Positions 764 through 52,647 of a stretch of 64,000 nt of DNA are shown here, piece by piece. The DNA is from Bacilli bacterium (lineage in GTDB: Bacteria > Bacillota_I > Bacilli_A > RF39 > UBA660). The stretch is from positions 1 through 64,000 of the forward strand of contig JAFYER010000008.1 of the NCBI GenBank assembly GCA_017544165.1, written 5' to 3'. Under the pieces are notes generated by a model that was not told the DNA's origin, did no database searches, and worked only from the letters and a program-made list of their open reading frames with translations. The translations under genes and the position numbers were made by a program. Each line of letters begins with the position of its first letter. The stretch's first letter is position 1.

Positions 764-2851
764 ATGAGTTACTTAGATAGTTTAAATACAAATCAATTAG
801 AGGCGGTAAAACATATAGATGGACCATGCCTTGTTGTTGCCGGCGCTGGCTCTGGTAAGACTAAAGTTTTAACAACGCGAATTGCTTATCTTATTGATAG
901 TGGTGTAAGATCAAGCAACATTTTAGCAATCACTTTTACAAATAAAGCGGCTAATGAGATGCGAACTAGAGTAGAAAATTTAATCGGAGCTCATAGTGCT
1001 TTCGTGGGGACGTTTCACTCTTTTGGTTTAAAGATAATCAAGGAAAATACGGAAGTTTTAGGAATGTCTAAAAACTTTACGATTATTGATACTGAAGATG
1101 TAAATAGTGTAATAAAGAAGATTCTAAAGGATTTAAATATTGATTCTAAAGAGTATTCACCAGCCTTTATTAGAAATAAAATATCCTTTATTAAAAATAA
1201 TATGTTATCAGAATCTGATATTGATAAATTTTTAACATCTCCTCCTGAAAAGATTGCTGTAAGAGTATATTATGAATATGAAAAAATTTTAAAGAGAAAT
1301 AATACAATTGATTTTGATGATTTACTTAAAAAACCAGTTGAATTATTTAATAAATATCCTGAAATACTTGAAAAATATCAAGAACACTATCCATATATAT
1401 TAATTGATGAATATCAAGATACTAACGAAGTTCAATATAAAATGGTAAGACTGCTTGCTAAGAAATATCGAAACCTTTTTGTAGTCGGAGATCCCTCTCA
1501 ATCAATTTATGCTTTCAGAGGTGCTAATTTCCAAAATATTTTAAATTTTGAAAAAGACTATCCTGATTGTAATGTTATTAAATTACCTCAGAATTATCGA
1601 AGTACCCAGACAATTTTAAATGCCGCGAATGATGTCATAAAAAACAATAAAGAAAGAAAAGATATTGACTTATTTAGTAATCTTGGAACAGGAAGAAAAA
1701 TTAAATATTTTAGGGCTTTCAATGATGAAGCGGAAGTAGCCAAAGTAGTAAGTGAAATAAAAGATTTATTACTCGAAGGATATAAAAAGAAAGATATAGC
1801 TATTTTTTATCGAACCAATGCTCAATCAAGAGCTATCGAAGACAAAATGGTTAAAGAAAATATACCTTATAAAGTATATGGAAGTTATTACTTTTATAAA
1901 AGAAAAGAAATAAAAGATTTACTTGCTTATTTAAAACTGATAGCTAATCATGATGATGACATATCTTTAAAGAGAATTATAAATGAGCCAAAAAGAAAAA
2001 TTGGTGAAAAAACGATTGATAATTTAGAAAATTTAGCTATAGCTGGCAACACTTCAATGTTTAATGCTATCTCATCTGGCAAAGAATTAGAATTTAAGGA
2101 ACTAATTATTGATCTTACTAAAGATGTTGAAAGTTTATCTTTAACAGAGCTTATTGATGCTGTTTTAGAAAAAAGTAAGATGAAAGAGGTTTTAGAAAAA
2201 GATAAAACTTTAGAAAGCGATTTGCGATTAGAAAACTTAATGGAGTTTAAAAGTGTTACTGAAAATTATGAAAAAGTAACAGGCAGTGTCAATTTAAATG
2301 ACTTTTTAGAGGAAGTAAGTTTAGTAGCCGATGCCGCGGATTATTCGGAAGATGGTGATGCGATAACTTTAATGACCGTTCATAGTGCTAAGGGGCTTGA
2401 ATTTAAAGTTGTCTTTATTATCGGCCTTGAGGAAAATATTTTACCACATGTCAATAGTTTATTTGATGAATCACAGCTTGAGGAAGAACGTAGACTAATG
2501 TATGTAGCTATCACTAGGGCAAAAGAAAGATTATATTTCTTAAATGCCCAGAAAAGAATGTTATTTGGTAGAATAACAGTTAATCAACCGAGTCGTTTCA
2601 TAAGCGAAATTAATTCAGATTTACTCGAAGTAGAAAATCAACAACTTGAAACCGCTAAGATTAATAAATCCCTTTTATATGATGAACAAGGAAATGGAGC
2701 CGATTATAAAAAAGGTGATTTAGTAGCACATATTACATATGGAAAAGGCATTGTTATGGATGTCGATGAACGATTTATTACAATTGCTTTTAATTATAAA
2801 ATAGGAACAAAAAAATTATTGAAAAATTATAAAGGTTTAAAGAAGGTGTAA
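764..2851 (+). CDS. pcrA: ATP-dependent DNA helicase PcrA/UvrD family
   Basis: Superfamily 1A 3'-5' helicase of 695 residues, used in replication restart and nucleotide excision repair in Gram-positive bacteria. The Q-motif (NTNQLEAV) is at about residues 8-15, the Walker A GAGSGKT at 27-33 and the Walker B DEYQD at 215-219. QNYRST and the MTVHSAKGLEF and YVAITRAKE motifs follow in order. The last 50 residues (KGDLVAHITYGKGIV...) are the Tudor-like domain that binds RNA polymerase in PcrA. AAGGTG precedes the ATG, and a TATAAT (737-742) lies upstream. It is followed after 2 nt by a nucleotidyltransferase and then ligA; pcrA-ligA adjacency is common in Bacillota. Confidence 0.97.
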   Translation: MSYLDSLNTNQLEAVKHIDGPCLVVAGAGSGKTKVLTTRIAYLIDSGVRSSNILAITFTNKAANEMRTRVENLIGAHSAFVGTFHSFGLKIIKENTEVLGMSKNFTIIDTEDVNSVIKKILKDLNIDSKEYSPAFIRNKISFIKNNMLSESDIDKFLTSPPEKIAVRVYYEYEKILKRNNTIDFDDLLKKPVELFNKYPEILEKYQEHYPYILIDEYQDTNEVQYKMVRLLAKKYRNLFVVGDPSQSIYAFRGANFQNILNFEKDYPDCNVIKLPQNYRSTQTILNAANDVIKNNKERKDIDLFSNLGTGRKIKYFRAFNDEAEVAKVVSEIKDLLLEGYKKKDIAIFYRTNAQSRAIEDKMVKENIPYKVYGSYYFYKRKEIKDLLAYLKLIANHDDDISLKRIINEPKRKIGEKTIDNLENLAIAGNTSMFNAISSGKELEFKELIIDLTKDVESLSLTELIDAVLEKSKMKEVLEKDKTLESDLRLENLMEFKSVTENYEKVTGSVNLNDFLEEVSLVADAADYSEDGDAITLMTVHSAKGLEFKVVFIIGLEENILPHVNSLFDESQLEEERRLMYVAITRAKERLYFLNAQKRMLFGRITVNQPSRFISEINSDLLEVENQQLETAKINKSLLYDEQGNGADYKKGDLVAHITYGKGIVMDVDERFITIAFNYKIGTKKLLKNYKGLKKV

Positions 2852-2853
2852 AA

Positions 2854-5749
<2,896 letters not shown>

Positions 5750-5770
5750 ATCTTATCTACCAAAACCCTC

Positions 5771-5799
5771 TTGATATATATATATATATATAGTACAAT
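5771..5799 (+). promoter_or_regulatory. promoter with a TA-repeat spacer, candidate phase-variable switch
   Basis: TTGATA (5771-5776) and TACAAT (5794-5799) are separated by exactly 17 bp. The spacer consists almost entirely of alternating T and A. The start codon of the downstream surface protein is at 5821, after an AGAGGT ribosome site. Gain or loss of one TA unit would change the spacing to 19 or 15 bp, which normally weakens a sigma-A promoter. That the element switches is inference; the geometry is seen directly. Confidence 0.75.
5774..5792. repeat. (AT)n dinucleotide tract
   Basis: A 19-nt uninterrupted alternating A/T tract (about 9.5 dinucleotide units) between the -35 and -10 boxes of the surface-protein gene at 5821. 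It is the longest dinucleotide repeat I noticed in the window. Such tracts are prone to slipped-strand mispairing. Confidence 0.9.
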
Positions 5800-5820
5800 G
5801 GGAAAAAGTAGAGGTATGGT

Positions 5821-7317
5821 ATGAAAAAAGATATTAAAAAAACTACTATTTTTTCTATTTCTTGCGTTACTATAACAGCTATATTAGTAATTATAATGTT
5901 TGCATCGACATTTTATTTTAAAGACAAAAACGAAGTAATATTAAGTGATGGTATGTCGATAGCCATGTATGTAGATAATAACGAAGTAGCAAACTTAAAT
6001 GATGTACCTTCGGGGTATGTTATTGATACTACCCAAAGTTATTGTTATAAAACCGATCGAAACACACCCGATACTGGAGCAATTTTGCAAACTAATGGCA
6101 GTGGTGAACATATCATAGGCAATCTAGTAAAAAATGAAAAATGCATGTTATATTTTAAACCATCATTAGCTACTTGGCTTGTTAATAGTGCTCCAAGAAG
6201 TGGGATAGATGCCGTATCAAGTAGTAATTGGATACTGACTTCTGATCATACAAATGAATGGCGTTATGCGGGGAAGAATCCTGATAATTACATCCAGTTT
6301 AATGGAGAACTATGGCGCATAATCGGTGTAATGCCCAATATGACATATTGTACAGGCACATATGGTAATGCAAATGAATGTAATACAACTGCAACAGGTA
6401 GTTTAGTAAAAATAATTAGAAATCAAACAATCAATGGTAGTAACATGCGCTGGGATTATAAAACTACAGCCGTTGGCTCTGCAACTTCGGGATATGGCTC
6501 TAATGATTGGAGTGATAGTCAGTTAATGCTTATGCTCAATGGAACTAATTATTTAAAAACCGGTTATGATGTAAATGGAAATCAGCTGCATACTAGCTAT
6601 ACAATAACAAGTAATGTAGTAGCAGGAAATAATCGTAACTATTATAATGCATCTTATAGCTATTTGGATGGAAATGGAACAACGGTGTATGTGCCTAGCC
6701 AGGCTTCGGCAGCACAAAATGGTTATACAGCTACAAGTGGAACTTTAACAAAAAAAATTGAAGCGTCTGCTCTTTCAAAAATAGCAACAGTCAAATGGGA
6801 TTTGTATGGAACAAATAGTGATACAACTGCAGCTGAAGGTAGTCCATCAGCTTTTTACAATAAAGAAAGAAATATAAATAGTTTAGGAGCAGTATATACA
6901 AATTCATCACTTCTTGAAAACAGGCCAGTATATTGGTATGGAAAAATAGGACTAATGTACCCCAGTGATTATGGATATGCCACAAATGGAGGAAGCACTT
7001 ACAATAGAAGTGTTTGTTTAAATTATCAAATGTCTGGATGGAATAGTGATAGTTATAAAACAGATTGTGCCGCTAATAGTTACTTATGGTATAGAAATAT
7101 AACGTCAACAGCCCCTGGAACATCAGGCAATAGTTCTTTTACATTAAGCCCCCGTTCAAGTTATGCTTACCAAGTGTTTTCTGTTGATAGTTCTGGAAAG
7201 ATTAACGTTCCTACTTGTTCTAATAACCTCGGGGTTCGCCCTGTTTTATACTTAAAGGCTGATACCATATTTACTGGTGGATCTGGCACTTGGAATGATC
7301 CATATACAATAGTTTAA
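5821..7317 (+). CDS. surface protein, RPVLYL/DPYTI lectin-like family, paralog 1
   Basis: A 498-residue protein with an N-terminal membrane segment (about 10-33) and a long exported region. Residues about 40-117 share a small module (DVPSGYVID... then paired Cys) with the protein at 31300. Residues about 118-498 are the domain common to five proteins here: a WRYAGKNPDNYIQFNGELWRI-type block near the start, NDWSDSQLMLMLNG in the middle, a WYGKIGLMYPSDYGYAT block, then SPRSS...VRPVLYLK and a final GTWNDPYTI. The overall order resembles C-type-lectin/FGE-like surface domains; this is by pattern only. No sorting signal or second membrane helix is seen. Its promoter spacer is a TA repeat and it ends in its own terminator, so expression is probably independent. 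Confidence 0.8.
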   Translation: MKKDIKKTTIFSISCVTITAILVIIMFASTFYFKDKNEVILSDGMSIAMYVDNNEVANLNDVPSGYVIDTTQSYCYKTDRNTPDTGAILQTNGSGEHIIGNLVKNEKCMLYFKPSLATWLVNSAPRSGIDAVSSSNWILTSDHTNEWRYAGKNPDNYIQFNGELWRIIGVMPNMTYCTGTYGNANECNTTATGSLVKIIRNQTINGSNMRWDYKTTAVGSATSGYGSNDWSDSQLMLMLNGTNYLKTGYDVNGNQLHTSYTITSNVVAGNNRNYYNASYSYLDGNGTTVYVPSQASAAQNGYTATSGTLTKKIEASALSKIATVKWDLYGTNSDTTAAEGSPSAFYNKERNINSLGAVYTNSSLLENRPVYWYGKIGLMYPSDYGYATNGGSTYNRSVCLNYQMSGWNSDSYKTDCAANSYLWYRNITSTAPGTSGNSSFTLSPRSSYAYQVFSVDSSGKINVPTCSNNLGVRPVLYLKADTIFTGGSGTWNDPYTIV

Positions 7318-7898: not shown

Positions 7899-9900
7899 AA
7901 AAATTGCCTTAATTGGGGTTATTTGTGTGATAACTCTTGTGGCACTAGGTATAGTTTTATACTTAATAAAAAACGCAAGTGGACTTACCATAAATGAAAA
8001 AAATTGGCTCGATCAAGCTAGACAATCAGGCCAAGTTATCAATATTAATGTTATAAATGATGCCGACGTATTTGGAAGTAATGGTGCCGGAGTCTTTTAT
8101 GACTTTATTAATGATTTTAAAACTGATTATAGTTTAAATATTAATGAAATAACTTATAATTATGGATCTGTCAGTAATGATATTTCTTTAGGCATAAAGA
8201 CTAATTTAAATGAATTTGATAAGATTTTTTATACTGACCATTATGTCTTGGTGGGTAAGAATTACACAATAATAAACAAAATAAGCAATCTTAATGGTAA
8301 AAATGTTGGTGTTTTAAGTAGTGAACTTGCTTATATATCAAATTATTTAAAAGATTCAACAATTATCTATAAAACATATGATAATAAAGATAGTTTATTA
8401 ACTTCTTTTAATGATAATGAATATATTATTGTACCTTTGCATTTATATTTAAAGGATATTATTAAAAATAATTTAAGAGTTTGTTATCATTTTAGTGATA
8501 TAAATATTTACTTTACTCTTACTACAGGAGATAGTGAACTTAGCAGCATTATTAATAAATATTTTGAAACATGGAAGTCAAAATATAATGATTATTATAA
8601 TGATAATTTATTTGCTTTAGTAACAAATAATTTAAATATATCATCGACTGAGATAGATGCCATGCGAAGTATGACTTATGAATATGGTTATATTAATAAT
8701 TCTCCATATGAAGTTATTTCAGGCGGTAACTATGGTGGTATTGCAGCCGTTTATCTAAAAGGTTTTATTGATTTTGCTGATGTTGATTTTAATTTTAAAA
8801 AGTATAGTAGCTTTAATCGGTTTACTAAAGCCATTGCTAAAGGTAATGTCGATATTTTCTTTGGCTATAGTAATTTAACTAGTGATTTTTCTAAAACGGA
8901 AGGTGGACTTAATAGTTCATATGTAGTAATTGCTAATGTAAAAAATAGTATTGTGGTAAACTCTCTAAATTCCCTTATTGGCAAAACTGTATATGTTGAT
9001 AAGAATTCTATTTTTGTTAAATATTTAAGTGCCGTTAATGGTATTGATATTAAATATTACAGTAGTAATAAGGATCTTGTTCGGTTAAATAAAAAAGATG
9101 AAATAATATTACTTGATAAAAATATTTTTGAATATTATAAATCTCACGGATTAGAGAATTATTCCGTTCGTTTTGAAAATAATTTAGATTACATTTATGG
9201 ATTTAATGTTAAAAATAGTAGTGCAATGTATAAACTTTTAAATGCTTATTTAAATATTTCGGATCCAAATCAAATATTAATTGAAGGGTTGTATAATCAC
9301 GAAAAAACGGTTAGATCAGGTAGAGTAATAGGATTTGTTGCTAAATATTTTATTGCCGTCGTATGTATTTTAGTTGTGGTTTTATTGATGTTTATTAAAA
9401 AAACAAAGAAAATAGTAATCGCTAAAAAAATAAAGAAAGATGATAAAATTCGTTTTATTGATCAATTAACTCTTTTGAAAAATCGGAGTTATTTATCTGA
9501 AAATATTAAAAAATGGGGTAATAATAATATTTATCCTCAGACAATACTTGTTATCGATTTAAACCATTTACAATCAATTAATGATGTCGAAGGATATGAA
9601 GAGGGTGACAAACAAATTAAAGCGGCCGCTAATGCATTAATAAAGACCCAACTTGATAATTCAGACATTATTCGAACTGACGGAAATGAGTTTGTTGTTT
9701 ATATGGTAGGATATTCCCAAAAACAAATAACAAATTATATACATAAATTAAATAGAGAATTTAAAAAATTACCTTATAATTATGGCGCTGAATATGGTTA
9801 TTCAATGATTTTAGATGATATTAAGACAATTGAGGATGCATTAAATGAAGCAACTAAAATTTTAAAAGAAAAAAAGGAAGAAAATGAAAAAAAGAATTAA
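7888..9900 (+). CDS. receptor with extracellular solute-binding-like region and degenerate GGDEF domain
   Basis: From the ATG at 7888 the protein has 670 residues; a TTG 18 nt earlier is possible, but GAGGAAG at 7872-7878 fits the ATG. A first membrane helix (about 5-25) and a second one (about 485-508) enclose some 450 extracellular residues that look like two periplasmic-binding (SBP_bac_3-type) lobes or repeats. The cytoplasmic end (about 525-665) follows the GGDEF fold: DQLTLLKNRSYL, DLNHLQSINDVEGYEEGD, then RTDGNEF in place of GG(D/E)EF. The first Gly and the third residue of the signature are replaced, so diguanylate cyclase activity is doubtful; it may bind nucleotide or a partner. It overlaps both neighbours, so the three genes are co-transcribed. 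Confidence 0.8.
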   Translation: MKTKKIALIGVICVITLVALGIVLYLIKNASGLTINEKNWLDQARQSGQVININVINDADVFGSNGAGVFYDFINDFKTDYSLNINEITYNYGSVSNDISLGIKTNLNEFDKIFYTDHYVLVGKNYTIINKISNLNGKNVGVLSSELAYISNYLKDSTIIYKTYDNKDSLLTSFNDNEYIIVPLHLYLKDIIKNNLRVCYHFSDINIYFTLTTGDSELSSIINKYFETWKSKYNDYYNDNLFALVTNNLNISSTEIDAMRSMTYEYGYINNSPYEVISGGNYGGIAAVYLKGFIDFADVDFNFKKYSSFNRFTKAIAKGNVDIFFGYSNLTSDFSKTEGGLNSSYVVIANVKNSIVVNSLNSLIGKTVYVDKNSIFVKYLSAVNGIDIKYYSSNKDLVRLNKKDEIILLDKNIFEYYKSHGLENYSVRFENNLDYIYGFNVKNSSAMYKLLNAYLNISDPNQILIEGLYNHEKTVRSGRVIGFVAKYFIAVVCILVVVLLMFIKKTKKIVIAKKIKKDDKIRFIDQLTLLKNRSYLSENIKKWGNNNIYPQTILVIDLNHLQSINDVEGYEEGDKQIKAAANALIKTQLDNSDIIRTDGNEFVVYMVGYSQKQITNYIHKLNREFKKLPYNYGAEYGYSMILDDIKTIEDALNEATKILKEKKEENEKKN

Positions 9901-10732
9901 AGATTTTTTCACAAGAATTATCAAAGTTAATAAAAGACCAGATATGATACTACTTCCTGGTCAATTAGCTTTTTTTCTTGTTTTAGCAACTATTCCTACG
10001 ATTACCTTAATAACTTATGGAGCATCAATTTTAAATCTATCTACTGACTTTTTGAAAAGTTTCTTTGTCAAAGCTTTTTCCAAAGATATAGCGGATTTAC
10101 TTTTAAGTGTTTCCAATGCCTCGAATGCGGGTATTAAATTAACACTTGCGCTATTATTTAGTTACTATATTGCAAGTAATGGGGCATCATCAGTTATTAT
10201 TACGTCAAATCAAATATATGGCCTTGAAAATGGTAGCTGGAGTAAAAGAAGATTAAAAGCTATTTTTATGACTTTTATCTTTGTTCTTATTATTGTTTTT
10301 CTTTTGATTATTCCAATATTTGGTGATCAAATTGTTTATGTCATTCAAAAGGTTAATATGAACCCAAAAGTTACATCGCTAATTGTAACAATATTTAATT
10401 ATTTAAAAAGTCCAATAATGTGGATATTCTTATTTTTACTTATTAAACTGATTTATGTTATGGCTCCAGATAGATATATAAAATCACATAATGCTAATTA
10501 TGGTGCTATCTTTACAACGATTTCCTGGATTTTAACAACAGAGATTTATTCATATTATATTAATAATATTGCTAATTACTCTGCTTTATATGGTAGCCTT
10601 ACCGGAATATGTGTTTTAATGATTTGGTTTTATTTCATCTCTTACTTTTTCGTTATTGGCCTTAGTCTTAATTTTCAAAGAGAAAACGAAGAATTGGAAA
10701 AAACTGCTAGTTTAATTAACTATGATGAGTAA
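9884..10732 (+). CDS. YihY/BrkB-type inner membrane protein
   Basis: A 282-residue protein with about six hydrophobic segments. The order LPGQLAFFLVLATIPTI near residues 25-42, the middle YYIASNGASSVIITSNQIYG and GSLTGICVLMIWFYFISYF near the end is typical of the YihY/BrkB (formerly 'ribonuclease BN') family. Transport of a lipid or envelope precursor has been suggested for the family, but the function is not settled. It starts inside the GGDEF-like gene (17-nt overlap) after AAGGAAG and ends before a terminator at 10741. Confidence 0.88.
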   Translation: MKKRIKDFFTRIIKVNKRPDMILLPGQLAFFLVLATIPTITLITYGASILNLSTDFLKSFFVKAFSKDIADLLLSVSNASNAGIKLTLALLFSYYIASNGASSVIITSNQIYGLENGSWSKRRLKAIFMTFIFVLIIVFLLIIPIFGDQIVYVIQKVNMNPKVTSLIVTIFNYLKSPIMWIFLFLLIKLIYVMAPDRYIKSHNANYGAIFTTISWILTTEIYSYYINNIANYSALYGSLTGICVLMIWFYFISYFFVIGLSLNFQRENEELEKTASLINYDE

Positions 10733-10740
10733 ATATTATA

Positions 10741-10784
10741 AATAGTGCTATTACAGGTATTACTTATATAGCATTATTTTTCTT
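10741..10784 (+). terminator. terminator after the YihY operon
   Basis: AATAGTGCTAT (10741-10751) pairs with ATAGCATTATT (10768-10778) with one G-U pair, followed by a T-rich run. Confidence 0.65.
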
Positions 10785-10811
10785 TAATATCAATCTAGTA
10801 TATTAACTAAC

Positions 10812-10830
10812 GATATTAAGGAGTAATATC
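10812..10830. repeat. short perfect hairpin between two terminators
   Basis: GATATTA (10812-10818) and TAATATC (10824-10830) form a 7-bp stem with a 5-nt loop. It sits between the YihY terminator and a second perfect terminator although no gene is visible between them, so a small RNA is possible. Confidence 0.45.
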
Positions 10831-10833
10831 TAA

Positions 10834-10867
10834 AAAGAAGTATAAAATTGATACTTCTTTTTTTTTA
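10834..10867 (+). terminator. second terminator in the 10733-10891 gap
   Basis: Perfect 10-bp stem AAAGAAGTAT (10834-10843) and ATACTTCTTT (10851-10860) followed by a run of T. Located immediately before the -10 box of the next surface-protein gene. Confidence 0.8.
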
Positions 10868-10891
10868 TTATTTTTGTTATAATAGGGTTAT

Positions 10892-12670
10892 ATGAAAAAT
10901 AAAAATGTATTAATCTATGGTGGTGTATTGATTATTACTATATTAATATTAGTAATATCTTTTTCATTTGCTTTTTTGGGAGCTACTAAAAACTTAGTAA
11001 ATAATTTACCAGTAAATGTTACTTTTGCTGATGGTGTAGCTGCTAATTTTATAGTTACTGGTAACACTAATATTTCTTTAAATATTCCTGGAAACGAAAT
11101 GTTAATGGACACTGTTGGTGAAGTGGTTGCTCAAAATTCAATTGGCATTAATGTTAGCTTACAAAGTAGTTTTAATCTAACTTGTTCATATGCTATAACC
11201 TGGAAATGGCTCGAAGATTCTGATGTTTATGAAAGAAGTTTTTCTGCCGACAATGAGTTTGTTGTAGCAGGTACTGATGGGACCCAAAATCTTGGAGAAA
11301 TAAATGTTCCTTATGAAGATTCTTTGGTTTTGGGAAGATATATTATTTCTACGAATAATGCGACAACTACGCAAAATTGGACATTTACTAGTAAATTCTA
11401 TAATTTAGATGTTAATCAAGATCATCATGAAAATAAAACCTATGAAGGCCAAATTGCTATAGAAAATGCTCATTGTTATGAAACCTCTAAACCAGCACTT
11501 GTTAATTATATTATAAATAATGCTGCAAGTTCTGGTGTTGACTCTCAAGGAAACAATTGGTATTTCTATTCAACAACCCATAGTTCAGATAGCAAAACCG
11601 ATTATCGGTATGCAGGCAAGAATCCCAATAATTTTATCGAATTTAACGGGGAAATGTGGCGAATTATTGGTATAATGCCGGTTGAATATGATACTAATTC
11701 AGATGGTGTTGCCGATACCCAAGGAAATTTAATTAAAATAATTAGAAACACCTCGTTTAATACAGGCGCGTCACTTGACTATAAGCAAGTAGGGGTTGGC
11801 TCATCAACTTATAGTTCAGGTTCCAATGCTTGGTCTGATAGTCAAACAATGTTAATGTTTAACCCTTCAATTTTTTATACAACTGGTTATACCGTTGGGC
11901 GAACTGTACCAATATTAAGTACTATTCGTAATAGTTATTCTGTTGATGAAAATGGAATTAAATTTTATCGTAATCCTGGTAGTTTATGGGATACCAGTCT
12001 TTATTCTATATATCGACCGGCAGCTGCGACAACAACAGGTGGCTTTACTTCATCTAATACATTCACTAAATGTTCTGACACTACTGTTGAAAATTGTTTC
12101 AAACAGTTAGATGGCGATTCACAAGGAATGGTAGCAACAGTTAAATGGAATTTAGGGGGCATTTCAACTGTAGCAGCGAATGCTGAGACGATATATGCTA
12201 ATGAACGGGGTAATTCTGTTTGTGCAACAATTTCAGGTTCAACTTGTACTCCTGGAACTAACTCACTAATAAGGCCAACTTATTGGTATGGTAAGGTTGG
12301 ACTTCCTTATGCTAGTGATTTTGGATTTGCAGCGGGTGGATCAAATGATGGTACAACGTATCCGAGAGCTAATTGTCTAACAGCTAATTTAAATGCTTCA
12401 GGTAATTATCGCACTTATTGTGGAGTTCCTAACTATTTAATTTTTAAAAATGCAACTGCTTCGGCTAATGGTACTGCCTTAGGTGGAACACTGTTGACAG
12501 CTTTTTCTACTAACACATATTCGGTTACGTATATGACTACTAGTGGTTATGTTTATTCTACTTCTCCTTCGTCGACATCATATTATACTAGACCTACACT
12601 TTATTTAGATCCTCGTGCTGTTTATATTAGTGGTGATGGATCTTATAATAATCCATATCGTTTCTTATAA
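10892..12670 (+). CDS. surface protein, RPVLYL/DPY lectin-like family, paralog 2
   Basis: A 592-residue exported protein. The N-terminal hydrophobic segment (about 7-28) ends in SFAFLG, close to the FAY/FAF ends of paralogs 3 and 5. Residues about 30-200 form a beta-rich stalk shared in outline with the protein at 50860. The family domain follows (about 205-592): DYRYAGKNPNNFIEFNGEMWR, SNAWSDSQTMLMFN, IRPTYWYGKVGLPYASDFGFA, then a diverged end (TRPTLYLDPR ... GSYNNPY). It is the most divergent of the four large members; its terminal variable site has no Pro-Val. TATAAT at 10878-10883 lies 8 nt before the ATG and no ribosome site is seen, so the mRNA may be leaderless. Confidence 0.78.
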   Translation: MKNKNVLIYGGVLIITILILVISFSFAFLGATKNLVNNLPVNVTFADGVAANFIVTGNTNISLNIPGNEMLMDTVGEVVAQNSIGINVSLQSSFNLTCSYAITWKWLEDSDVYERSFSADNEFVVAGTDGTQNLGEINVPYEDSLVLGRYIISTNNATTTQNWTFTSKFYNLDVNQDHHENKTYEGQIAIENAHCYETSKPALVNYIINNAASSGVDSQGNNWYFYSTTHSSDSKTDYRYAGKNPNNFIEFNGEMWRIIGIMPVEYDTNSDGVADTQGNLIKIIRNTSFNTGASLDYKQVGVGSSTYSSGSNAWSDSQTMLMFNPSIFYTTGYTVGRTVPILSTIRNSYSVDENGIKFYRNPGSLWDTSLYSIYRPAAATTTGGFTSSNTFTKCSDTTVENCFKQLDGDSQGMVATVKWNLGGISTVAANAETIYANERGNSVCATISGSTCTPGTNSLIRPTYWYGKVGLPYASDFGFAAGGSNDGTTYPRANCLTANLNASGNYRTYCGVPNYLIFKNATASANGTALGGTLLTAFSTNTYSVTYMTTSGYVYSTSPSSTSYYTRPTLYLDPRAVYISGDGSYNNPYRFL

Positions 12671-12719
12671 TGCACTTGCAAAATGTATAAATTGTGTTAA
12701 ACTATAAATGTAATCGCTG

Positions 12720-12890
12720 AAGAAAGATGATATTTATTGATATTTTTTAAAGAGAGTTCTTGGTTGGTGGAAAAGAATAAATATAATAATTATTTGCTAC
12801 TTTCGAAGATTAAATGGTGAAGACCTATAAAACTAAAAAGTGAAATAAAGGATGGTACCGCCTTATAGGCTCCTTGGTATTATCCTTTTT
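12720..12890 (+). promoter_or_regulatory. T-box riboswitch, alanine specifier
   Basis: Leader of the kinase-alaS operon. AGAGAG and GGTTGGTGG (about 12750-12770) fit stem I of a T-box. GCT at 12796-12798, in a loop-like context before TTTCGAAG, fits an alanine specifier codon. AAGGATGGTACCGCC (12848-12862) is the T-box antiterminator sequence that pairs with the uncharged tRNA end. AAGGATGGTACC can alternatively pair with GGTATTATCCTT to form a terminator followed by a T run (to about 12890). Uncharged tRNA-Ala should allow transcription; this is the established mechanism. Exact 5' end not determined. Confidence 0.88.
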
Positions 12891-23993: not shown

Positions 23994-25778
23994 ATGCGAA
24001 AGATTTTACTATATATAATAATTATTGCTTTAGCTATTTGTACATATCTTTCAATTTCATATGCCTATTATTCTATATCAATTGGGACAAATCAAAATAT
24101 AACTACCAATGTGGCAATAGATGCGTGTATTACACTTACGGTTAGTACTCAAATAAATCTTAGTGGTGATAAAGCTGTTCCTATAAATGACAATAGGGCT
24201 TTGACAAATACTAATTATCGGACGGCTTTTACTGTTTATAATAAATGTTCCACAGCTCAAAATGTTGACATAGCATTTGCTCCTGGTTCTGCTAATACTA
24301 TGCCAATAGAAGCTATAAAATATGCCATTTATGAGCAAGGAGCTACAGTTCCAACCGCAGGAACCGCATTAAGCACAAATAAAATAAGATTATATGATAG
24401 GGTAATAAGTGAAACATTATCTTCAATAAGTGAAACAGTTGAATATGGCTACCTAATCGGAAATAATTTATCAATCCCTGCTAATAGTAGTAAAGCTTAT
24501 TATGTTAATACTTGGATAGATTATTCTGAAGGTGGTGGCGGTAATCTTTCTACAGCGAATAAAACAGCAAGATTACATTTACTTGCTGCAAGGAAGGGCG
24601 AAATAGGGGGTCCATTATTAAATGAGTGGCTAGTAAATACAGCTCCAAAAAGTGGAACAGATGCCGTATCAAGTAGTCCATGGATATTAACATCAGATCA
24701 CACAGGTGAATGGCGCTATGCTGGAAAAAATCCTGATAATTACATCCAGTTTAATGGAGAACTATGGCGAATAATAGGGGTAATGCCTGATATGATGTAT
24801 TGTACAGGTACATATGGTTCTTCGGATGAATGTTATTATGAGAATTGGCAAAGCGGACCATTAGTTAAAATAATAAGAAATCAACTAATAAGCAGTAGTA
24901 CCTTAAGTTGGGATTATAAACAAACTGGAGTAGGTTCGGCAACAGAATCTTATGGTTCAAATGACTGGTCAGATAGCCAATTAATGCTCATGCTTAATGG
25001 TACAAATTATTTAAAAACTGCCTATGGTGGTAATATGCAAAATAGGGTTGGTCTCCATTCTAGTTATACAATAACAAGTAATGTTGTAAAAGGAAATGGT
25101 TATAACTTTTATAATGCAACGTATAGTTATCTAGATGGAAATGGAACAACAATATATAAACCAAGCAGCGCTACCAAAAGTAGTTATACAGCAACCAGCG
25201 GAACCTTATATAAGAAAATCGAAAGCTCTGCACTATCAAAAATAGCTTCAGTAGGATGGGGTTTATATGGAACAAATTCATATGATACTGCAGCTGAAGG
25301 TAGTCCATCAGCCTTTTATAATAAAGAAAGAAATATAGATAATACAGGATTGGTGTATACAAATTCATCATTGCCAGAAATGAGACCATTTTTATGGTTT
25401 GGAAAAATAGGATTAATGTATCCAAGTGATTTTGGATATGCAACAAATGGAGGAACAACATACGATAGAAATGTATGTTTAGGATATCAAATGTCAGGAT
25501 GGAGTAGTGGAAGTTATCAAACAGATTGTGCATTAAATAGCTATTTATTATTCCAAAATATAACATCAACAGCGCCTGGGACAAGCGGAACAGCACAATG
25601 GACATTAAGCCCGTCCTCTAGTGGCGCGAACGCTGTGTTCCGTGTCGATAACGGCGGCTACGTGGGCGTCAGCGCCGCCAGCGGCAACATTGCGGTCCGG
25701 CCCGTCTTGTATCTTAAAGCTGAAACAATCTTTACTGGAGGAACTGGCAAATGGAATGATCCTTATACAATAAGTTAG
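23994..25778 (+). CDS. surface protein, RPVLYL/DPYTI lectin-like family, paralog 3, with GC-rich variable-like site
   Basis: A 594-residue exported protein. The N-terminal helix (about 4-23) ends in SYAYYS. Residues about 25-205 form a stalk domain resembling camelysin/TasA-type or adhesin beta-folds only in general outline. The family domain (about 210-594) has WRYAGKNPDNYIQFNGELWRI, NDWSDSQLMLMLNG, WFGKIGLMYPSDFGYAT and VRPVLYLK...GKWNDPYTI. The segment encoding about residues 539-571 (25608-25706) is GC-rich and full of NNC codons, unlike the rest. An 86-bp block just upstream is identical to the gene at 50860. No membrane anchor at the C-terminus is seen. Probable ligand-binding surface protein; function inferred. 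Confidence 0.8.
   Translation: MRKILLYIIIIALAICTYLSISYAYYSISIGTNQNITTNVAIDACITLTVSTQINLSGDKAVPINDNRALTNTNYRTAFTVYNKCSTAQNVDIAFAPGSANTMPIEAIKYAIYEQGATVPTAGTALSTNKIRLYDRVISETLSSISETVEYGYLIGNNLSIPANSSKAYYVNTWIDYSEGGGGNLSTANKTARLHLLAARKGEIGGPLLNEWLVNTAPKSGTDAVSSSPWILTSDHTGEWRYAGKNPDNYIQFNGELWRIIGVMPDMMYCTGTYGSSDECYYENWQSGPLVKIIRNQLISSSTLSWDYKQTGVGSATESYGSNDWSDSQLMLMLNGTNYLKTAYGGNMQNRVGLHSSYTITSNVVKGNGYNFYNATYSYLDGNGTTIYKPSSATKSSYTATSGTLYKKIESSALSKIASVGWGLYGTNSYDTAAEGSPSAFYNKERNIDNTGLVYTNSSLPEMRPFLWFGKIGLMYPSDFGYATNGGTTYDRNVCLGYQMSGWSSGSYQTDCALNSYLLFQNITSTAPGTSGTAQWTLSPSSSGANAVFRVDNGGYVGVSAASGNIAVRPVLYLKAETIFTGGTGKWNDPYTIS
25482..25567 (+). repeat. 86-bp exact direct repeat, copy A
   Basis: Identical base for base, by my reading, to 52351-52436 in the paralog at 50860. 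Flanking sequence diverges on both sides, so the identity is a local tract, as left by gene conversion. Confidence 0.85.
25608..25706 (+). other. GC-rich variable-region-like patch in surface protein paralog 3
   Basis: By hand count 68 of 99 bases are G or C, in an otherwise AT-rich gene. Most codons end in C (GGC, GTC, GCC, AGC, AAC, TAC, TTC). It encodes SPSSSGANAVFR... to ...AVRPV, the site where the other paralogs also differ most, just before the conserved YLK. The following 72 bases are AT-rich again. The pattern resembles the variable region of a diversity-generating retroelement, in which template AAC codons are changed at the A positions. No template or reverse transcriptase is in the window. 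Confidence 0.6.
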
Positions 25779-25800
25779 AGGCAGTCCGAAGATAGGCGTC

Positions 25801-25825
25801 CCTGCCGGCTCGTGGGTCCGGCAGG
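25801..25825 (+). other. GC-rich perfect hairpin after the surface-protein stop
   Basis: CCTGCCGG (25801-25808) and CCGGCAGG (25818-25825) form an 8-bp stem with loop CTCGTGGGT. It lies in a GC-rich island (about 25779-25827) starting just after the stop codon, with no T run, so it is not an ordinary terminator. A hairpin or cruciform a short way after the variable region is a known cis element of diversity-generating retroelements. Confidence 0.7.
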
Positions 25826-25867
25826 ACATATATATGAAATTTATCTGAGAAATATACATTTATATAT

Positions 25868-50859: not shown

Positions 50860-52647
50860 ATGAAAAAGAAAAAGGCAATATATATAGCTAGTATTATATT
50901 TGTTATATGTTTAGCAAGCATTTTTGCTATTGCTTTTGCTTATATTGGTAAACCGACAGAAACTGGTAATGCCAATATTAATGTAAGTATAGTGTCCGAT
51001 GATGGTATTGATTTTCAATATACCGGTACAGCAACTTTAAATTTAACGGCAGCTTTAAGCAATTTGGCACTAGCAAATGCTTCGAACTCTTATACAAGTT
51101 ATTCGGTGTCTGAGCTAACAAATAGAACAGTAAGTATGACAAGTAATGCAACAATGTACCCTGGTGGTTTGACTTGTTCATATGATATTGTTTATACGCC
51201 AACTGTTGCTTATACACAGACACCTGCAGCGACTTCGGCTGGGTTAAATGAACTAGTTTTAAGAGGTAAAATAGGGAGTACGGTTTATTTTGAAACAAAT
51301 GTAGCTGGAAGTAGTCCTGTTGTACTTTATACTCATTCAATAAGTACAACTTCAGCTGCATCAACAACTAATCAAGAATGGGGATTTTCTGCTCGTTTTT
51401 ATAATTTAAATATTGATCAAAGTCAAGCGTCTGGCCAAAATCCAACGGGTGTAATATCAATAGAAAATGTTAAATGCACTGATCGGTCTTTAAGTGCTTT
51501 TATTACCACTAAAGCTCCAAGAAGTGGAACAGATGCTGTATCAAATAGTCCATGGATTTTAACTTCTGACCACGATGGAGAATGGCGATATGCCGGTAAA
51601 AACCCTGATAATTATATAGAGTTTAATGATGAGTTATGGCGTATAATTGGTATAATGCCAAATATCAAATATTGTACGGGTACATATGGGACAAATACAG
51701 AATGTAATTCAACTAGAATTGGTAGTTTTGTTAAAATAATTAGAAATGGTTCTTTAGGAAGTTTTCTATGGGATTATAAGCAAACAGGAGTTGGCACATC
51801 AACATCAGCTTATGGTTCCAATGATTGGAGCGATAGTCAATTAATGCTTATGTTAAACGGATCAAACTATTTATTTACGGGATATGATGTAAGTGGAAAC
51901 AAGTTACATCAAATGTATGGTAATGGTATTATGCAAGGAATGGTAAAAGATTTAAATGGCAATAATTTTTATAATGTATCATCACCAGGAGGTTATTTAG
52001 ATGGAAATGGAACTACAGTAAAAATACCAAGTAGCGCTACAACAAGTAGCTATACCGCAACAAGTGGAACGGTCCCAAAGAAAATAGGAGCAACAGCATT
52101 ATCCCAAATAGCAACCGTAAAATGGGATTTATATGGAACAAATAGTTATACAACAGCAGTCGCAGGATCACCAGCAGCCTATTATAATAAAGAAAGAAAT
52201 ATTGGTAACACAGGTGCTGTTTATTATGTATCTGCAACTGGACGTGAAAAAAGAGCAGTATATTGGTATGGAAAGATAGGACTAATGTATCCAAGTGATT
52301 ATGGATATGCAACTGGTGGTGGAACAACTTACGATAGAGATACGTGCTTGGGATATCAAATGTCAGGATGGAGTAGTGGAAGTTATCAAACAGATTGTGC
52401 ATTAAATAGCTATTTATTATTCCAAAATATAACATCTACATCACCGGGAACAAGCGGAACAAATCAATGGACAATAAGCCCATATTCTAGTACAGCGTAT
52501 AGCTTATTTTATGTCTATAGCACCGGAAGTATAAACTATGCCAGCGCTACCAGCACTAGTGCAGTTCGTCCAGTTTTATATCTAAAACCAGATATAACTA
52601 TTACCGGTGGAACTGGTAAATGGAATGATCCATATACAATAAGTTAG
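50860..52647 (+). CDS. surface protein, RPVLYL/DPYTI lectin-like family, paralog 4
   Basis: A 595-residue exported protein. The N-terminal helix (about 5-28) ends AIAFAYIG, like paralogs 2 and 3. A beta-rich stalk (about 30-210) resembles that of the 10892 protein (TFYLTCSYDI-type Cys pair, SARFYNLNIDQ). The family domain (about 215-595): WRYAGKNPDNYIEFNDELWRI, NDWSDSQLMLMLNG, YWYGKIGLMYPSDYGYAT, SPYSSTAYSLFYV...VRPVLYLK and GKWNDPYTIS. It shares an exact 86-bp block with paralog 3. Its terminal variable site is AT-rich, so it lacks the GC-rich patch. AGAGGATAAG precedes the ATG. Confidence 0.8.
   Translation: MKKKKAIYIASIIFVICLASIFAIAFAYIGKPTETGNANINVSIVSDDGIDFQYTGTATLNLTAALSNLALANASNSYTSYSVSELTNRTVSMTSNATMYPGGLTCSYDIVYTPTVAYTQTPAATSAGLNELVLRGKIGSTVYFETNVAGSSPVVLYTHSISTTSAASTTNQEWGFSARFYNLNIDQSQASGQNPTGVISIENVKCTDRSLSAFITTKAPRSGTDAVSNSPWILTSDHDGEWRYAGKNPDNYIEFNDELWRIIGIMPNIKYCTGTYGTNTECNSTRIGSFVKIIRNGSLGSFLWDYKQTGVGTSTSAYGSNDWSDSQLMLMLNGSNYLFTGYDVSGNKLHQMYGNGIMQGMVKDLNGNNFYNVSSPGGYLDGNGTTVKIPSSATTSSYTATSGTVPKKIGATALSQIATVKWDLYGTNSYTTAVAGSPAAYYNKERNIGNTGAVYYVSATGREKRAVYWYGKIGLMYPSDYGYATGGGTTYDRDTCLGYQMSGWSSGSYQTDCALNSYLLFQNITSTSPGTSGTNQWTISPYSSTAYSLFYVYSTGSINYASATSTSAVRPVLYLKPDITITGGTGKWNDPYTIS
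52351..52436 (+). repeat. 86-bp exact direct repeat, copy B
   Basis: Same sequence as 25482-25567. It is immediately upstream of the site where the two paralogs differ most. Confidence 0.85.

Follow-up and report, generated by a model that had tools for sequence, protein, structure and literature searches.

The segment at 25602-25703 is the variable region (VR) of a surface protein gene that is targeted remotely, in trans, by a chromosomal diversity-generating retroelement (DGR), with a probability of about 0.93. The window is the whole 64-kb stretch of DNA that was analyzed. It is very probable that this uncultured bacterium purposely mutates the face by which its own surface proteins bind. 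The genome assembly examined contained 1.05 Mb in 13 contigs and was 87.8% complete.

Target gene and GC-rich patch in the window

The target gene (23994..25778, forward strand) is an open reading frame (ORF) of 594 amino acids. It encodes an N-terminal hydrophobic signal or anchor and a C-terminal DUF6273-like domain. The original prediction reported a 99-bp patch with 68 G/C inside this AT-rich gene, followed by coding DNA that is again AT rich. Exact counting of 25608-25706 gave the same 68 of 99, which is the maximum among all 99-mers of the window (mean GC 0.29). No 99-mer elsewhere in the window attains 55 G/C. The patch lies near the 3' end of the ORF, immediately ahead of RPVLYLK. The edges of the GC jump are sharp, and the GC content is back down to 0.35 over the last 72 bp of the gene. 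Comparison of the paralogues also bore out the claim that they diverge most strongly in the segment directly before RPVLYLK. An Rfam search of the window and of the cassette described below returned nothing useful.

DGR cassette on contig C1

A complete DGR cassette lies elsewhere in this genome, on contig C1. It contains, in order, a target gene, a template repeat (TR1), a MutS_I-like ORF, an Avd-like gene, and a reverse transcriptase (RT) gene. The usual DGR order is target, TR, accessory, and RT. The target gene before TR1 is a paralogue of the window gene and is followed by the same post-stop hairpin. TR1 (G000:C1:5636-5737) is AAC rich and noncoding and lies upstream of the other three genes. 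No phage genes were noticed beside the cassette.

The RT gene (C1:6894-7958) is the single RVT_1 match in the genome. Its translation contains the motifs IGNMSSQ (IGxxxSQ type) and YMDD. The nearest solved structure is 8ub7 (E 2e-16), which we take to be the BPP-1 DGR RT. The enzyme is of the DGR type by its [ILV]GxxxSQ motif and its best solved-structure match; NCBIfam gave a sub-threshold match only, to a group II intron RT. The Avd-like gene precedes the RT gene and overlaps its start. Its matches to NF033474 (E 2.6e-11) and to bAvd (E 2e-7) do not reach the curated cut-offs. The ORF ahead of Avd (L017 6162-6551) encodes 129 amino acids, and its match to MutS_I is weak (E 0.0016, under the cut-off). 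A MutS-like DGR accessory is known in the literature.

These findings uphold the original reading of the patch as a DGR target. It had placed the driver outside the window, within which neither an RT nor a template was found, and the genome-wide search found the only RVT_1 match and the only template repeat, which is adenine biased, together on C1. The sister target on C1 is altered at template adenines only.

In the proposed mechanism, the RT and Avd encoded by the C1 cassette would act on template RNA, which the RT would copy with errors at adenines. The mutated cDNA would then replace the 3' part of the target genes, with the GC-rich 3' end of the repeat (GTCCGGCCC) and the DNA hairpin after the stop codon as guides. 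Template AAC and AAT codons would become NNC and NNT, and these changes would alter residues on the presumed ligand face of the DUF6273 (C-type-lectin-like) domain. Rewriting of adenines would leave a GC-rich patch in an AT-rich gene. We infer that the C1 enzyme writes the window VR.

Post-stop hairpin and 3' elements

The hairpin after the window gene (25801..25825, forward strand) is GC rich and lies about 98 bp downstream of the VR. It consists of CCTGCCGG, 9 nt, and CCGGCAGG, which form a perfect 8-bp stem, and no T-run follows it, so that its description as something other than a T-tailed terminator held. Its folding energy with DNA parameters is -10.5 kcal/mol, whereas random pieces from the window average -3.8. 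The hairpin recurs, with a changed loop, after two other genes of the genome, the C1 target and a third target on contig C10 (C10:28024-29172). The GC-rich post-stop hairpins of the genome belong to exactly the three genes with a GC-rich VR. The ends of the other paralogues are AT rich, in some cases with ordinary AT-rich stems; no GC-rich hairpin follows any paralogue that lacks such a VR.

The hairpin lies in a conserved block that begins with the stop codon (25776..25832, forward strand) and is common to the C1 and C10 targets. Over 60 bp 3' of the stop, where there is no coding constraint, identity is 85% with C10 and 80% with C1. Among relatives, all 18 of the DGR targets checked have a GC-rich hairpin soon after the stop codon; with one exception, the energies lie between -9 and -13.2 kcal/mol (45-nt window). 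Across species, the structure stays and the sequences differ. In the phage consensus that Guo et al. described (PMC3240598), the loop is a 4-nt GRNA and the spacing from the VR is 4 to 34 bp; the window hairpin departs from it, with a 9-nt loop and a spacing of about 98 bp.

By analogy with the initiation-of-homing (IMH) element of BPP-1, the segment at 25695..25723 (forward strand) is a putative IMH-like segment. It begins with GTCCGGCCC (25695-25703), which is common to the window VR and TR1. It continues with GTCTTGTATCTTAAAGCTGA, which is identical in the C1 target and absent from the TR.

Variable regions compared with TR1

The window VR (forward strand) aligns without gaps to TR1 and to the VRs of the C1 and C10 targets, and its differences are concentrated in TR1-adenine columns. 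In the C1 VR, 20 of the 38 TR1 adenines are changed and none of the 64 other bases is (p=4e-11). For the window VR, the counts are 25 of 38 adenines and 12 of 64 other bases (p=2.4e-6), and for the C10 VR they are 21 of 38 and 14 of 64. A direct comparison of the window and C10 VRs gives differences at 29 of the 38 TR1-adenine columns and at 8 of the 64 others (p=9e-11), and each VR was therefore rewritten independently. The original prediction expected a template nearly identical to the patch, with differences at adenines only. An adenine-biased template exists, but the patch has 12 non-adenine differences from it. The window VR is thus enriched for adenine-column changes but was not copied from TR1 in its present form.

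TR1 is the only template found and the adenine enrichment of the window VR is significant, and one could suppose that TR1 wrote this VR directly and that the 12 non-adenine differences are later point mutations. We consider this very improbable. In nine of the 12 columns, the window has the base of the C10 VR, unlike the base shared by TR1 and the C1 VR. In the remaining three, the window base is A, as expected if a second template (TR2) had A there. The C1 VR shows what copying from the same TR1 leaves, namely no non-adenine differences. The gene bodies are most alike between C1 and C10 (83% over 900 bp) and least alike between the window and C10 (76%). The nine bases are shared despite this, and therefore TR2 probably wrote both the window and the C10 VRs, each in its own round of rewriting from one template that is absent from the assembly. 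We give still less credit to horizontal transfer or gene conversion without a retroelement, which the original prediction named as plain import of GC-rich DNA and ranked as the main alternative. It would account for the sharp-edged GC jump, and VR-like segments were found in other genera, but it does not predict VR differences that sit in template-adenine columns. Import is not needed with a DGR RT, Avd, and TR present in the genome.

The rival to be taken more seriously is a sub-case of the DGR reading, with the same origin and a different present activity. The window VR may be an old product of a previous DGR, or of a TR1 version that preceded the present one, and may now no longer be rewritten, with TR1 serving the C1 target only. 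The non-adenine differences from TR1 run along the whole window VR and TR2 is missing from the assembly, as this account would have it. It also has a precedent in Treponema denticola SP32, where a remote VR matches the template of another DGR type (PMC4891356). The hairpin is nevertheless intact, as is the 29-bp IMH-like segment, which is identical to that of the C1 target, and the window and C10 VRs have been rewritten independently of each other. We regard loss of activity as possible but rather doubtful. On the preferred reading, TR2, which also served the C10 target, was the last template to write the window VR, and the window site would still be active.

Search for a second template

A search with a reconstructed TR2 yielded no second template, either in the genome or in nine other species of the genus, and no close match in 386 genomes of the family. 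No second copy of the TR1 3' element was found in the assembly. Contig ends were tested for fragments of RT, Avd, or targets, and none was found (two small contigs were masked; the whole-assembly searches cover the ends too). The TR2-diagnostic columns are frequent among the templates of relatives.

Inspection by eye led to the rejection of an AAC-rich segment 3' of the C10 target (C10:29241-29414) as a candidate for TR2. The segment has TR1-like bases at columns 15 and 27 and becomes a VR-like coding end.

The larger region after the C10 target and its hairpin (G000:C10:29231-29417; L018 14232-14418) has a TR-like start that passes into a VR-like coding end. It may be what remains of recombination between a template and a target once located downstream, a scar left by a lost cassette.

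Target protein family and fold

The genome contains about 15 genes of the target family. Paralogue identity over the C-terminal domain is 61 to 74%, plus one at 39%. The window contains three further paralogues (5821-7317, 10892-12670, and 50860-52647), which have neither a GC-rich VR nor a GC-rich post-stop hairpin.

The AF2 model of the C-terminal 390 residues, built with 25 aligned sequences, has a pLDDT of 90.4 and a pTM of 0.93. Foldseek with this model placed DUF6273 phage proteins among the top viral matches. It also matched the Thomasclavelia IgA peptidase, whose family has an N-terminal domain annotated as DUF6273 (PMC12402451). Against the C-terminal domain of Legionella Lcl, the match covers 42 residues only, with an E value of 1.3. 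Pfam DUF6273 (PF19789) scores 15.1 to 16.4 bits, below the gathering cut-off of 23.5; 7 of the 25 aligned relatives match it at E <= 0.01. The predicted fold is that of a DUF6273-like domain, and we name the protein only DUF6273-like because the Pfam sequence match is below the cut-off. DUF6273 is described as C-type-lectin-like and is a published DGR target domain that carries the VR (PMC10743442, PMC11792537).

DGRs and template arrays in relatives

At most RT-bearing loci of uncultured Bacilli, TR and VR are paired without a single non-adenine mismatch in 60 bp. In one genus, templates lie away from the RT, in tandem units about 280 bp apart. There are 5 such units after the target in G250 and 13 in G147. 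In each unit, an AAC-rich repeat is accompanied by a conserved 3' element whose stem appears to covary. An RT was found in both genomes, on a different contig from the array.

The 5-unit array (L127 [G250:C21] 7933-9236, reverse strand) directly follows the target gene at 9529-12798. The VR of this target (9602-9695) differs from unit T4 (8867-8961) at 11 of 28 adenines and at 0 of 66 other bases. T4 is the only unit with zero non-adenine differences; the other units have 2 to 11.

The 13-unit array (L111 [G147:C11:9000-17000], about 2741 to 6308, reverse strand) is noncoding and has a period of 270 to 306 bp. The RT and Avd are on another contig. The G147 VRs have no exact match to any single unit. 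For the VR linked to the array, a mosaic of two units is the better explanation, a comparison made without a formal null. In G326, the VRs checked match RT-unlinked templates better than they match the RT-linked template.

Two different targets flank one TR in another locus (L046, at 1534 and 5171). Their VRs are identical over the 60 bp compared, and their C-terminal ends are identical. Relative to the TR, both VRs are changed at 11 adenines. The two genes were either written by a single cDNA or share a copied 3' end.

Given the arrays in relatives, a second, RT-unlinked template for the window VR is plausible. There is close to an even chance that the DGRs of this family use a bank of alternative templates, many of them RT unlinked and some in tandem. 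Targets would then be diversified by template choice and adenine mutation together, and the window and C10 VRs would come from a template other than the RT-adjacent one.

Comparison with known systems and significance

The BPP-1 phage DGR (Brt, Avd, TR, mtd VR, and post-VR hairpin) has the nearest solved RT structure. It also shares Avd, the adenine-specific change from TR to VR, the C-terminal VR, and a GC-rich 8-bp hairpin after the target. Unlike BPP-1, the system described here is chromosomal and has several targets, with the window target in trans and a DUF6273-like domain instead of Mtd. Its hairpin is farther away (about 98 bp), the loop is longer, and there is an extra MutS_I-like ORF.

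The DUF6273 DGR targets of gut phages and Faecalibacterium prophages (tentaclins; PMC10743442, PMC11792537) have the same fold, with the VR at the C-terminal end. Here, in contrast, the targets are bacterial surface-type proteins with about 15 paralogues.

The DGR of Treponema denticola is also chromosomal, with remote surface targets and one remote VR that matches a nonresident template (PMC4891356). It differs in its target protein and host and has an HRDC accessory, whereas this genome has Avd and a MutS_I-like ORF. DGRs with more than one TR have also been reported (PMC6642488). Because T. denticola SP32 (PMC4891356) and the multi-TR DGRs (PMC6642488) precede it, the system is of a known kind. 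A literature search for RF39 and DGR found no paper.

A GC anomaly seen by eye betrayed a trans DGR target on a different contig from its enzyme. The RT-unlinked template arrays would be new if confirmed. Arrays of 5 and 13 units with the RT on another contig raise the testable question of whether one DGR combines template choice with adenine mutagenesis. An Avd-like match was found in 151 of 386 genomes of the family, most under the curated cut-off. This suggests that DGRs are common in a family of uncultured Bacilli with small genomes, where the proteins they diversify would be those of the host surface and not phage tails.
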